From contig NZ_JABXKF010000156.1 of the NCBI RefSeq assembly GCF_017115165.1, forward strand, positions 1-64,000: a stretch of 64,000 bases of DNA, written 5' to 3'. A model generated the notes under the pieces. That model made no database searches and was not told where the DNA came from. It was given only the letters and a program-made list of their open reading frames with translations. Position 1 is the first letter of the stretch; each line of letters begins with the position of its first letter. The DNA comes from Nostoc sp. LPT. GTDB lineage: Bacteria; Cyanobacteriota; Cyanobacteriia; Cyanobacteriales; Nostocaceae. Positions 18,142 through 21,920 of this stretch are shown here, piece by piece. A program made the position numbers and the translations under genes.

Positions 18142-19095
18142 ATGCTGAAAAAACAAGAATCTTTAGCCTCTCACAAATGGTCAAATTGGGATGAACTAGA
18201 ACTGCGTCACCTGAAGTATGCGATCGCTGTAACCCAAAAGCAAGGATTTACCAACGCTGCTGCATATCTGGAAATCGATCAGGGATTTCTGAGTAGACAA
18301 ATCAAGCGGCTGGAGAAAAAAATTGGATTTCAACTATTTGATCGCAACCAGCGCCCGTTAAAATTAACAGATGCGGGAAATGAGTTTTTGCAAGAAGCCT
18401 GTCAAATTCTCAGTCAGGTTGAACGAGCAATTGAATCAGGTCAACAGTTAAGTCGTGGTGAGAAAGGACGATTAACTATAGGAATCAATACATCCATCGC
18501 CAACAGCAAACTACCCGATATCCTCCGAGCATTTCATGAGAAGTTTCCAGAAGTAAAATTGGTGTTACAGGAAATAGCTTCCTATGACCAAATTGAGAAG
18601 TTGCGAAACCAACAACTGGATTTAGGTTTCTTTCATCTGCATAATTTACAAAATATCAAAAGCAATAATGATGATGTTTTGACTTCTATGCCTATTCTTC
18701 AAGAATCGCTAGTCATTGTTTTACCGGAAAACCATCGTTTCGTAAGGCTAACTAGCATTTCACTTGCAACACTGGCAAATGAGCAATTTATCTTACCACC
18801 ACATAACTTGTTATATAACTTACGCGATCAAATTAATAGGCTTTGCGTGGATGCAGGTTTTCAGCCAAAAGTCAGACAAGAAGCAGCATGGATATCAACT
18901 GTTCTGAGTTTAGTTGCAGGTGGAATGGGGATTTCACTACTTCCGGCAAACGTACAAAATCTTCAACGAAGTGGTGTAGTCTATCGTTCTATACAAGGAC
19001 AATCACCAGTATTAGAAATCGTTGCTGTTTGGCGAAGTGATCATGTACCTATAATTTTGAAAAATTTCCTTGAAGTGATTGGGAATTTAGCATGA
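18142..19095 (+). CDS. LysR family transcriptional regulator
   Basis: A 317-residue regulator. The winged HTH spans residues about 18-80 (ELRHLKYAIAVTQKQGFTNA, then LEIDQGFLSRQIKRLEKKIG), followed by a periplasmic-binding-protein-like effector domain (RLTIGINTSIAN onward). The N-terminus is about 17 residues longer than usual, and the ATG has no clear ribosome site, so a later start is possible. It is divergent from the aspartoacylase gene, the classic LysR arrangement with its target. Confidence 0.9.
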   Translation: MLKKQESLASHKWSNWDELELRHLKYAIAVTQKQGFTNAAAYLEIDQGFLSRQIKRLEKKIGFQLFDRNQRPLKLTDAGNEFLQEACQILSQVERAIESGQQLSRGEKGRLTIGINTSIANSKLPDILRAFHEKFPEVKLVLQEIASYDQIEKLRNQQLDLGFFHLHNLQNIKSNNDDVLTSMPILQESLVIVLPENHRFVRLTSISLATLANEQFILPPHNLLYNLRDQINRLCVDAGFQPKVRQEAAWISTVLSLVAGGMGISLLPANVQNLQRSGVVYRSIQGQSPVLEIVAVWRSDHVPIILKNFLEVIGNLA

Positions 19096-19181
19096 ATTTA
19101 TCTTCAATATTTTTCAACTCAGCATCGCTGAAGAGTTTTTAATCTAATCACGATTAAAAGACGACTACTATCTATGGTCTA

Positions 19182-19754
19182 CTAGCCCAGATAACCTGCA
19201 TTCAACACCTCTTCAACTGCAATATTAAATTCTGAAAAAATCCGTGATCCAATTTGCTGATTAGCTGTAAAAACTGTTTCTTCGTAAAATCCATCTTCCA
19301 GTAGTAACACTGAAATTTTTGTTTCTAGTGGGTCTACAATCCAATATTCAGGAACTTCTAACGCCGCATATTCCGAGCGTTTATAACGATAGTCCCGTTT
19401 AACAGACTCTGGACTGACCACTTCGACAATTAGTAACGGTGGTGATTCAAATACTGCTGAAGCATTCAACAATTCTCTGGCTTGTTCCACTGTCACTACA
19501 CACAAATCGGTCAACCTAGATTTATTTCTACCCGTTCTCACCCCACTTTCCCGAAAAGTCAGCCAATTAGAGTTACAACGTTTGATTTCTGCTTTCAAGG
19601 CAGTATCCAAAAAATCGACAATCAGAAAATGTTCAATAGTAGGTGGATTCATTAACTCTAGCTTCCCATCCACCAGTTCATAATGGAAACCGTTGCCATC
19701 ATCATAGGTTAAGTACTCCTCAAACGTAATGCTGGTTACTGGTGTTGTTACCAT
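19182..19754 (-). CDS. Uma2 family (DUF820) putative endonuclease
   Basis: A 190-residue Uma2 protein with the standard order: SITFEEYLTYDDG, then FHYELVDGKLELMNPP, SRLTDLCVV, PPLLIVEVVSPESVKRDYRYK (PD-(D/E)XK-like core) and YAALEVPEYWIVDP. It differs from the copy at 9280 and is not a recent duplicate. It is probably intact, and its cell role is unknown. Confidence 0.87.
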   Translation of the reverse strand: MVTTPVTSITFEEYLTYDDGNGFHYELVDGKLELMNPPTIEHFLIVDFLDTALKAEIKRCNSNWLTFRESGVRTGRNKSRLTDLCVVTVEQARELLNASAVFESPPLLIVEVVSPESVKRDYRYKRSEYAALEVPEYWIVDPLETKISVLLLEDGFYEETVFTANQQIGSRIFSEFNIAVEEVLNAGYLG

Positions 19755-19804
19755 TCCAACTGACTCCTAGACGATATCTTTATCTTAAACAGTAAAATAA
19801 ATCA

Positions 19805-19990
19805 TCAGTTTTCTTCGTAGTTTTGCAACACCTCCTTTCAACTGCTCTCCCACCAAAAACCTATCCGAAGTCGTAAGCACAATCCGTCCGTAGTTTTGCT
19901 GTTTCATAATTGGAAAGGCGGCTTGAGCCAGCCATGTTGGTGCTTATAAATTAATGCTGATGGTATGAGTCAAAAATGGCGTTTCGTTGG
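19805..19990 (-). pseudogene. Short-chain dehydrogenase fragment
   Basis: On the minus strand one frame reads LAQAAFPIMKQQNYGRIVLT followed by TSD, which is the core strand and catalytic-Ser region of an SDR enzyme. The Rossmann N-terminus and the YxxxK motif are missing, and upstream codons contain a stop. It is a relic of an SDR gene distinct from the intact one at 20888. Confidence 0.55.
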
Positions 19991-20060
19991 TTGCTCCCCT
20001 ATCTTGCTTGGAATGGATTTACGACGTTCATCAAAATCTGGAGGTTACTTTTATAACGTG

Positions 20061-20163
20061 AGCTAACGGATCAAAGCTGAGCGACGCTTCAAGGCGCCTG
20101 TTGGTGTGAAGAACGGAACCGGGGTGGCCGCCCTGAAGCGTTCGCTCGAGCGCCGTGTTAGGC
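20061..20163 (-). other. Integron attC (59-base-element-like) recombination site
   Basis: Read on the minus strand, the site begins GCCTAAC (a full RYYYAAC match, 20163-20157) and ends GTTAGCT (20067-20061; one mismatch to GTTRRRY). Between them are imperfect arms, GCTCGAGCGAACGCTTCA against a complement GCTGAGCGACGCTTCA, which pair except for two unpaired bases, the hallmark extrahelical bases of attC. The length, 103 bp, is within the known range. The TAA of the NTF2-like gene lies inside the first core, as in typical cassettes. GC content is about 60 per cent, well above the flanks. Confidence 0.75.
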
Positions 20164-20541
20164 TGTGTGGGCGGACGATGGAAGCGGACAGACTTGCATG
20201 GCTTGAATCAAGCCCTGCGCAATGGTGAAACGATGACCGACGTGCTCATCGGCAAGAACAACTCCAGCCAGGTCGCGCACGACCTGATGCACTTCGACCA
20301 AGATACGCCCGGCCTCCTCCGGGTGAAAAGTCACCGGCTCCACGTGCGGGTTGATCTCGCTCCATTGCTCCGTCCAGTAAGCACGGACTTCTTCAGATCC
20401 ACGGACAAAACCGCCTTTGAATGCTCTCGGCCAGGTCACATCCGGAGTCATGAGGGCGAGGGCGGCGTCAATGTCCCGCGCGTTAAAGGCCGCGTAGGCC
20501 GCGCAAAGCAGTTCGATTAGGAGTGCAGGTTGATCTGGCAT
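20158..20541 (-). CDS. NTF2-like/SnoaL-like protein in a gene cassette
   Basis: A 127-residue protein of the NTF2-like (SnoaL/limonene-epoxide-hydrolase-like) fold: LCAAYAAFNARDIDAALALM, then TPDVTWPRAFKGGFVRG and VRAYWTEQW, with a beta-rich second half (GRILVEVHQVVRDLAGVVLA, then HRFTIAQGLI). Such small domains bind hydrophobic ligands or act as isomerases; the ligand is unknown. ATG 20541 fits the domain start, and a longer frame to 20613 crosses the likely cassette edge. The stop codon overlaps the attC core, and GTTAGTC at 20577-20571 could be the other boundary. GC near 60 per cent marks transfer from outside. Confidence 0.85.
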   Translation of the reverse strand: MPDQPALLIELLCAAYAAFNARDIDAALALMTPDVTWPRAFKGGFVRGSEEVRAYWTEQWSEINPHVEPVTFHPEEAGRILVEVHQVVRDLAGVVLADEHVGHRFTIAQGLIQAMQVCPLPSSAHTA

Positions 20542-20582
20542 AAGCGGTGTGGTGAAGGATACGCAGTAGGGACTAACAATTG

Positions 20583-20695
20583 ATAGACAGAAAATTTCTG
20601 TATAATACTCCAAAGCCGCTGTTTAAGCCGAATCTTTGCGCATAATACGCTCATTTGGGTGGATAGGTCGAAAGTTTCTGCATAACATCCTAAAG
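20583..20695. repeat. Pair of 33-bp direct repeats beside the cassette
   Basis: ATAGACAGAAAATTTCTGTA and onward (20583-20615) and ATAGGTCGAAAGTTTCTGCA and onward (20663-20695) agree at most positions and share the orientation. They adjoin the putative outer cassette boundary at 20571-20577. Confidence 0.55.
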
Positions 20696-20729
20696 GGTAG
20701 AGGGTAGACTGGCTCTATCTATCTTCCGA

Positions 20730-20870
20730 ACCGTTGGGTTTCACGCCGTTCAAACGCCACTTTGACGCCAGTTGCTACAACGGAGGGAACCTCCGCAACG
20801 CACTGGCTCCTCAAGTAGGGAAACCCGCCCATGCAAGTGGCTCCCCAACCTACGATTCTGTGCGCCTTCA
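20730..20870 (-). repeat. Dispersed GGGCGGGTTTCCC-type repeat
   Basis: GC-rich repeat on the minus strand with TTGGGGAGCCACTTGCATGG and GGGCGGGTTTCCCTACTTGA, related to 9965-10066 and 60195-60275. No gene is present. Confidence 0.7.
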
Positions 20871-20887
20871 AAGAGAACTGGTATTAG

Positions 20888-21769
20888 CTACCCAACTATT
20901 ACCTCACTGTTACTATCTACATAATCCGTACTTACAGTCACCTGCTGCCAAGCATCCAAATCCGTTTTGACCCCTGACAGTTTTTCCTGAATCAGGCTCA
21001 TGGCATCGGTGCCTAATGCCAGTCGCATCGGTGGATGAGGACTTTCCACAGCTTGAATGATGGCTTGTGCCGCTTTAAGTGGATTGCCAGGTTGCTTACC
21101 ATCCATCTGTTTGAACCACTGCAATGAAGCACCGCTCACGGTCGCATAGGCATCAATGGAAAGTTCTGCTGCTGCCAGAGAGCGTCCGTTAAAATCTGTG
21201 CGAAATGCCCCAGGTTCAATTAAAGTGACCTTAACTCCAAAGGATTCAACCTCCTTAGCTAGGGCTTCAGACGTACCTTCCAGAGCAAATTTAGCGCCAC
21301 AATAGAGGCTGCTTCCACCAAATCCCACTAATCCTGCTGTGGATGACATATTGACAATGTGACCGCTGCCTTGCTGACGCATCACAGACAAGACTGTTTG
21401 CATCAGACGGAGCGCCCCAAAGAAGTTGGTTTCAAAAAATCGGTGAATATCAACATCACTGACTTCTTCGAGTGCGGCAATGAGTCCATGTCCAGCATTG
21501 TTGACCAGCACATCAATTCGACCAAATGTAGCGATCGCTGTATCAACGGCTGCTTGTATGTCTTGGGATAACGTGACATCCAGACGTACAGCCTTTGCGG
21601 TCTCTGGATAATGCTCAATCAAAGTGCGAAGTTGCTCTGGTTTGCGAGCAGTAGCAAGCAGGTAGTCGCCCTTCTTCAACACAGCTTCTGCTAGGGCCCG
21701 TCCGAACCCTGTTGAACATCCTGTAATCAACCAAACTTTAGGAGCGACACGATTTTTGTCTGAGTTCAT
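20888..21769 (-). CDS. SDR family oxidoreductase
   Basis: A 293-residue classical short-chain dehydrogenase: cofactor motif TGCSTGFGRALAEA (residues about 14-27), NNAG (about 91), catalytic Ser in NMSSTAG and YCGAK (YxxxK). The Asp/Arg pattern after the second strand (LLATARKP) suggests NADP(H) preference, and PGAFRTDF is the usual loop. The substrate is unknown. ATG 21769 has GGAGAA upstream. It is divergent from the LysR gene at 21956 with a symmetric operator between, so it is probably that regulator's target. Confidence 0.9.
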   Translation of the reverse strand: MNSDKNRVAPKVWLITGCSTGFGRALAEAVLKKGDYLLATARKPEQLRTLIEHYPETAKAVRLDVTLSQDIQAAVDTAIATFGRIDVLVNNAGHGLIAALEEVSDVDIHRFFETNFFGALRLMQTVLSVMRQQGSGHIVNMSSTAGLVGFGGSSLYCGAKFALEGTSEALAKEVESFGVKVTLIEPGAFRTDFNGRSLAAAELSIDAYATVSGASLQWFKQMDGKQPGNPLKAAQAIIQAVESPHPPMRLALGTDAMSLIQEKLSGVKTDLDAWQQVTVSTDYVDSNSEVIVG

Positions 21770-21920
21770 TTGTTTTCTCCAATACAAAAACGATGAGAGC
21801 AAGCTGGTGTATCTCTCGGTCGAAGCGAAAAGTACAGCAATTCGCTAAAAGCGCAACTGCAATTCTGTAACTTACTTTCCACATTAAGCAACCTGAATAA
21901 ATATGTCCAATATGATTTTT

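Follow-up and report, generated by a model that had tools for sequence, protein, structure and literature searches.

Layout of the locus

The DNA analysed here, a 64-kb stretch from the heterocyst-forming genus Nostoc hereafter referred to as the window, carries on its minus strand a GC-rich integron gene cassette, which is preceded by attI-like palindromic repeats and lies between two short-chain dehydrogenase (SDR) genes, one of them fragmentary. The features comprise:

19861..19963, minus strand: short-chain dehydrogenase gene fragment (SDR1), longer in relatives, with matches to L034, L035, L036, L039 and L040
19964..20060, minus strand: stretch downstream of the cassette, common to Scytonema hyalinum and (to 19951) S. 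tolypothrichoides
20061..20163, minus strand: attC site, R'' GCCTAAC at 20163-20157, R' GTTAGCT at 20067-20061
20067..20576, minus strand: integron gene cassette, 510 bp, with the G/TT crossover as its 5' edge and the G of the attC R' box as its other end
20158..20541, minus strand: cassette gene encoding a 127-aa SnoaL_2/NTF2-like protein (Pfam PF12680, 2e-11), its stop codon within the attC R'' box
20573..20700, minus strand: attI relic, palindromic repeats up to the GTTAG crossover, with a 112-bp match to L233 and attI-profile matches
about 20583-20605, 20630-20650 and 20660-20690, minus strand: repeat units of the attI relic (by eye)
20765..20815, no strand assigned: short dispersed Nostoc-genome repeat that separates the attI relic from the upstream SDR gene, with many 90-100% matches in relatives and in the genome itself
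20888..21802, minus strand: upstream SDR gene (SDR2), Pfam adh_short 3e-50

Along the minus strand, the palindromic repeats (about 20700-20578) are followed by the GTTAG crossover with its G at 20577, the NTF2-like gene (20541-20158) and the attC site. The stop codon of the open reading frame is located inside GCCTAAC (20163-20157), and the 103-bp attC site ends with GTTAGCT (20067-20061). At the other end, GTTAGTC at 20577-20571, 29 nt upstream of the ATG at 20541, occupies the place where the G/TT 5' edge of a cassette is expected. The original prediction, which proposed a GC-rich integron cassette made up of an NTF2-like gene, an attC site and a GTT edge, was correct in its coordinates and letters upon re-reading of the sequence, and is borne out by gene, covariance model match and edge alike. 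GC content likewise agrees with it, amounting to 59.5% in the cassette versus 41.8% in the window and constituting the maximum among all 511-bp slices of the window. Such a difference could also point to an assembly chimera or to contamination with GC-rich bacterial DNA, an explanation that is exceedingly improbable given that the block of attI and cassette, together with its flanking repeats, recurs at 89-94% identity in four other records.

The surroundings bear the marks of rearrangement. In G011 (L034) the two SDR genes are adjacent, with neither the block nor any attI, while in the window 103 bp of SDR1 remain, 920 bp away from SDR2. Moreover, the stretch that Nostoc sp. B(2019) has between two upstream CCCAACG repeats seems, by eye, to be missing from the window. 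The truncated SDR1 together with the missing upstream stretch makes the locus look eroded by deletions. A comparison with relatives for an empty site had been proposed along with the original prediction; no empty attI that is a precise counterpart of the window locus was found in the relatives. The stretch at 19964..20060 is perhaps a remnant of the next cassette, and the SDR neighbourhood of the window itself may be an old cassette array. Outside the genus, L035 (G051:C145) contains a broken intI, an attI-like site, an attC and, further on, an SDR gene, a tautomerase-like gene (by eye) and another SDR gene in the same orientation.

The attC site and the family of the cassette gene

The attC site was assessed by means of a covariance model, R1, for which 16 attC sites adjoining TIGR02249 integrases of other cyanobacteria served as seeds, the window being excluded. 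The seeds were picked by eye: 16 of 21 compared sites were used, those of the window, L155, L149 and L141 and the second one of L150 being omitted, and the structural scan had listed further sites in the loci L139-L168 beyond those used. In R1, 20 pairs covary, 13 of them with changes on both sides, and covariation amounts to 0.374 versus 0.119 in shuffles. Searched against the 64-kb window, the model yielded a single match at E up to 10, namely the predicted site at 20061-20163 on the minus strand (20.3 bits, E 0.016, the E-values of this search being approximate and off by about a factor of five), which extends over the full length of the model (positions 1-87 of 87). The covariance check that had been suggested for the locus, here performed with a cyanobacterial model of our own, gave its match at precisely the site foreseen. 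In the structural scan, an equally good site arose in two of 2000 local dinucleotide shuffles. With the core R-box pairs forced, the site folds at -22.1 kcal/mol with two single extrahelical bases in the arm, as had been predicted; in the unconstrained minimum-energy structure the arms are paired and the R boxes are left open. Measured against the attC box consensus, RYYYAAC for R'' and GTTRRRY for R', the R' box GTTAGCT deviates at one position.

The score of 20.3 bits is modest compared with other cyanobacterial attC sites, which reach up to 67 bits, and would not stand out alone across the 8.6-Mb genome (190 contigs); 20061-20163 is absent from the five sites listed by a genome-wide attC scan in which 150 of 934 candidates were scored. 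A search of 19000-21600 against Rfam gave no match. Two structural scanners were set aside in favour of the covariance model: a first, structure-only version was unspecific, with 19 window matches versus 24, 24 and 12 in three shuffles, and a constrained version returned 26 window matches and similar numbers in four shuffles.

The protein encoded by the cassette matches Pfam SnoaL_2 (PF12680) of the NTF2-like family above the cut-off. Members of this group are often small-molecule isomerases or cyclases. Its likeness to known SnoaL_2/NTF2-like proteins lies in this Pfam match, while it differs in having just one weak match in the PDB, to TerC, over 37 residues (E 0.0055). At E<=1e-3 there are 4599 protein homologues, and at E 1e-30 the protein is present in 44 of the 388 genomes of a class sample (Cyanobacteriia). 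For comparison of the loci, 132 pattern matches in GTDB contigs were reduced to the 105 that encode relatives and then to the 80 that were kept. Among these 80 homologous loci, R1 (E up to 1) identified attC sites in 23, namely 43 sites that all lie on the gene strand, and none in the other 57; an attC ends 30-49 nt before the gene in seven loci and lies at the gene end in eight, 13 loci combined. Edge motifs are enriched as well: RYYYAAC marks the gene end in 40 of the 80 loci, compared with a background of 3%, and GTTA is found 28-45 nt upstream of the gene in 21, compared with 5%.

Besides the seven loci with an upstream attC, the cassette gene occurs in another context in Cyanomargarita (L061), where the cassette is present at 92.7% identity behind the attC of another gene (SDR) and the flanks differ from those of the window. 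The similarity between window and L061 spans 20062-20569, so that neither of its ends is more than about 8 bp from the predicted cassette edge; in L061, a copy of the SDR2 end is followed by an attC at 2886-2971 and then by the NTF2 cassette. According to the original prediction, the cassette interpretation would be contradicted if the same 520 bp were present in related cyanobacteria with vertical phylogeny and host-like composition. Part of this is indeed observed, in that the stretch is present in relatives and the composition is partly host-like (gene and flank GC correlate across the homologous loci, rho 0.55), but the cassette is found in more than one context and gene GC exceeds flank GC in 75 of the 80 loci.

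In the gene tree, the window and L059-L062 form a supported clade, and rows from Verrucomicrobiota, Planctomycetota, Gemmatimonadota, Myxococcota, Pseudomonadota and Fibrobacterota stand among or beside the cyanobacterial ones. Built from few columns and with 14 of 78 inner branches well supported, the tree is limited in resolution and, as far as such an alignment can tell, supports a mixing of phyla rather than any dated transfer. The ratio dN/dS is 0.14-0.37 against eight more distant copies and 0.54-0.95 against the four closest, the latter based on few changes and counted codon by codon without gaps; constraint on the window copy may be relaxed. Two promoter-like matches, one per strand, fall within 20000-20900 versus 0.5 expected, which proves nothing on expression.

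A vertically inherited chromosomal gene, with GTT and hairpin motifs arising by chance and no integron involved, would be in keeping with the related genes in many Nostoc genomes, many of which share recurring upstream sequence. This explanation is opposed by the attC model match, the attC-flanked arrays in relatives, the strand and edge statistics, the Cyanomargarita context and, albeit with few well-supported branches, the mixing of phyla in the gene tree. Taken together, the attC match, the attC sites of the homologous loci, the L061 context and the attI match to L233 described below refute it, and its probability is very small.

The recipient site and the decay of integrase genes

On the upstream side of the cassette, window positions 20573-20684 align with an attI of G045 (L233) that adjoins an intI remnant, over 112 bp at 69.6% identity (E 8e-9), colinear through GTTAG, while the next-best window match of this query has E 1.1. 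In L233, the attI is followed by a different gene and then by an attC (46.1 bits), and the attI in turn resembles, at 70.7% over 144 bp, the stretch next to intI in the complete integron L161. A direct comparison of the window attI with L161 gives a weak match (61 bp at 70%, E 0.023, 40 loci searched), so that the link between the two runs through L233. Shorter matches of the window attI lie beside intI fragments of L033, L047, L052 and L200 (E 4e-6 to 5e-4, 40 loci searched). A profile from seven Nostoc-type attI cores has its three best window matches at the cassette edge, the best being weak (9.9 bits, E 0.061). An attI at the 5' edge of the cassette, as in a chromosomal integron, is indicated foremost by the L233 match, the profile and L161 matches being weak. 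By eye, the cyanobacterial attI sites of L161, L233, L043, L047 and L052 are apparently made up of several palindromic repeats that separate the start of intI from the GTTAG crossover, and two related attI types can be seen.

These results bear on the suggestion that the cassette was captured at a secondary site, i.e., that an integrase encoded elsewhere inserted a circular cassette at a non-attI (attG-type or secondary) chromosomal position. Off-target capture would agree with a single cassette, with the lack of any intI found in the window and with gene contexts that differ among relatives, and passages of PMC8618304 describe it as a published route to clusters without intI. It is improbable and largely refuted nonetheless, since 112 bp of the recipient match an attI adjoining an intI remnant and similar palindromes adjoin the intI fragments of the genome itself.

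The locus is not the sole relic of this kind. While the original prediction regarded the cassette as isolated, the genome-wide search that was run uncovered further copies of attI as well as attC sites and fragments of intI. The palindrome TTATAC.GAAA.TTTC.GTATAA occurs (up to 3 mismatches) at 13 places versus one for a reversed control; it is grouped on C6, C17 and C142, and by eye the C6 and C142 sites are beside intI fragments, while sites on C142, C17, C112 and C60 are in front of genes. A 44-bp repeat shared with C6 was considered as a common dispersed element, a notion that was abandoned, as the palindrome is present at just 13 places, near intI fragments or genes. A DNA query with the attI core matched 15 of 39 genomes (own included), all of one genus, with five further attI copies in the genome itself, four of them with other genes behind and three of these with an attC match. 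On C142 (L200:4873-6656), a full attI with several palindromes stands beside an N-terminal intI remnant (residues 7-98) and precedes a GC-rich luciferase-like monooxygenase cassette with an attC of 32.5 bits. On C112 (L202:6600-8600), two TIR-domain genes and an attC of 48.5 bits come after a shortened attI; C17 (L201:6271-6970) has an attI followed by a GNAT acetyltransferase gene that ends inside a weak attC match (18.1 bits, E 0.17); and C60 an attI followed by a gene for a 255-aa protein. On C6 the attI is beside a C-terminal intI piece, and C156 has kept the end of an attI together with about 15 residues of intI (by eye). In addition, the attC scan listed sites on C22 (62.9 bits) and C71 (28.7 bits) and two more near chance. 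The attI-core query that finds the five copies misses the window attI, which is, judged by these searches, of a different and more diverged type than the others; its nearest counterpart is in G502 (94%, all but 2 of 158 query bases covered), and it is also close to those of S. hyalinum, Nostoc sp. B(2019) and S. tolypothrichoides.

The C112 neighbourhood was compared in relatives. In G025 (C282, L243), it comprises a longer attI with different sequence behind and no intI in the stretch read, and G005, G003 and G033 have no attI there. An exact G/TT insertion of an attI unit on C112 was rejected, as the host gene continues past the point in G005, G025, G003 and G033; because of this continuation, and of the longer attI further on in G025, C112 looks like a deletion derivative.

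A tblastn search of the 64-kb window at E 1e-3 found no intI, in agreement with the original prediction; its 29 queries were stop-to-stop ORFs of cyanobacterial integron loci, and at least three of them (from L139, L150 and L166) are, judging by their first residues, no integrases. Nor were intI traces found next to the window-type attI in the window, L060, L062 (tblastn) or L230. The genome as a whole has fragments on C6 (105.7 bits) and C142 (two pieces, 80% and 60% identity). None of 35 genus genomes (own included) has an intI over the NCBIfam TIGR02249 cut-off, while pieces at E 1e-20 or better exist in nine of the 35, a search in which 31 of up to 69 candidates were scored in some genomes; G051, outside the genus, is the sole genome of 59 with an intI over the cut-off. 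In the class sample, an integrase exceeds the cut-off in 123 of 388 genomes and E 1e-20 is reached in 181 of 388, versus none and four, respectively, among 14 control genomes. With 123 of 388 in the class versus 0 of 35 in the genus, integrons are common in the class sample and broken in the genus sample.

Origin of the block and comparison with known systems

In all likelihood, a resident chromosomal integron of cyanobacterial type has decayed at this locus, and the feature is the genuine cassette of its first position. Following the known mechanism, the folded bottom strand of the cassette attC would have been joined by IntI to the double-stranded attI between G and TT, giving rise to the order attI repeats, G/TTAG, gene and attC. 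The integrase gene beside this attI would have been lost later, loss being presumed rather than original absence. Neighbouring genes were partly deleted, and a short dispersed repeat has come to lie upstream. The stranded cassette retains its gene, presumably expressed, as an open frame of a family under purifying selection, and would probably be remobilised only by an integrase supplied in trans.

With a sedentary chromosomal integron of this type the locus has in common an attI with GTT crossover, the orientation of the cassette, and attC R and L boxes with extrahelical bases; it differs in that no intI was found at the locus, the genome having only fragments of it elsewhere, on C6 and C142, that one cassette with attC is present and that the neighbours are truncated. 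A cassette with an attC and no nearby intI is reminiscent of a CALIN, i.e., a cluster of attC sites without integron integrase, for which published origins include intI loss (passages of PMC8618304). The IntegronFinder default for a CALIN is two or more attC (according to parts of PMC12444791), whereas the window has one attC match and has kept its attI. Insertion of cassettes into genomes at attG, as cited from Loot et al. 2024 in a passage of PMC12444791, resembles the locus in the single cassette away from any intI, but here the recipient is attI-like and no arbitrary consensus site. Delta-attI cassettes of class 1 and 2 integrons (described in parts of PMC12901181) are similar in that attI pieces are linked to cassettes off the intI-attI junction, yet in these the attI piece replaces the downstream attC, while in the window the attI is upstream and the attC is present.

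A different origin is suggested by the distribution of the block. Together, attI and cassette are 89-94% identical in L059, L060, L062 and L230, and the block with its flanking repeats recurs in Scytonema hyalinum, Nostoc sp. B(2019), S. tolypothrichoides and G502. In S. hyalinum (L059), the order of attI, NTF2 cassette, spacer and SDR piece is common with the window at 89.7% over 19861-20738, and a 50-bit attC lies beyond the SDR piece. Hypothetically, the block itself might be a dispersing unit that spread without intI and was filled or exchanged by an integrase in trans, a rather unlikely alternative which draws on the lack of any intI found beside the L060, L062 and L230 copies, on two attC matches upstream of the L062 attI, and on C112 and G025, where different genes stand behind attI in the same neighbourhood with no intI in the stretch read. 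Cassettes that contain attI pieces are, moreover, known in mobile integrons (passages of PMC12901181). On the contrary, repeated intI loss from several separate integrons would give the same scatter, and the outer ends of the block vary by deletion, so neither unit ends nor a target site can be defined.

Somewhat more speculatively, the decayed integron of the window might be one station of a "distributed integron" of the Nostocales, with scattered orphan attI sites that would each hold one or two cassette genes without an intI of their own, loaded and exchanged by an integrase in trans and now stranded because intI is dead genus-wide, and with the attI-plus-first-cassette blocks themselves dispersed; this broader picture is a tentative one that we consider possible rather than probable. 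If trans-loading were true, one genome could have several capture points for foreign genes.

Integrons in Cyanobacteria have already been published (parts of PMC8618304, PMC9668308 and PMC2426708), as has a Cyanobacteria attC model (parts of PMC8352920 and PMC9176274), and the statement that cassettes are little known in heterocystous cyanobacteria needs to be narrowed. It holds insofar as the literature search, outside which most subscription papers fall, found no paper joining all four terms integron, cyanobacteria, attC and Nostoc, and no title on Nostoc attI relics among the best-ranked matches. What is unusual is that relics made up of attI plus cassette lie scattered without intI. By sequence, Nostoc keeps cassettes at attI relics while its integrase genes are broken in the genomes searched, and the attI pattern, palindromic repeats ending in GTTAG, can reveal orphan sites that would be missed by searches based on intI or on two or more attC sites. 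Furthermore, one NTF2-like cassette gene spans cyanobacteria and several other phyla.

The cyanobacterial plasmids AP018182.1, NZ_CP064880.1, NZ_CP063786.1, AP018234.1 and NZ_CP083583.1 also carry homologues of the cassette gene (81-83% DNA identity), and 7 of the 14 matched plasmid records are predicted to be conjugative. In Nostoc sp. S13 (L138:3379-3510), the attC of the cassette (29 bits) is immediately followed by what appears, by eye, to be the 5' edge of another, similar cassette.
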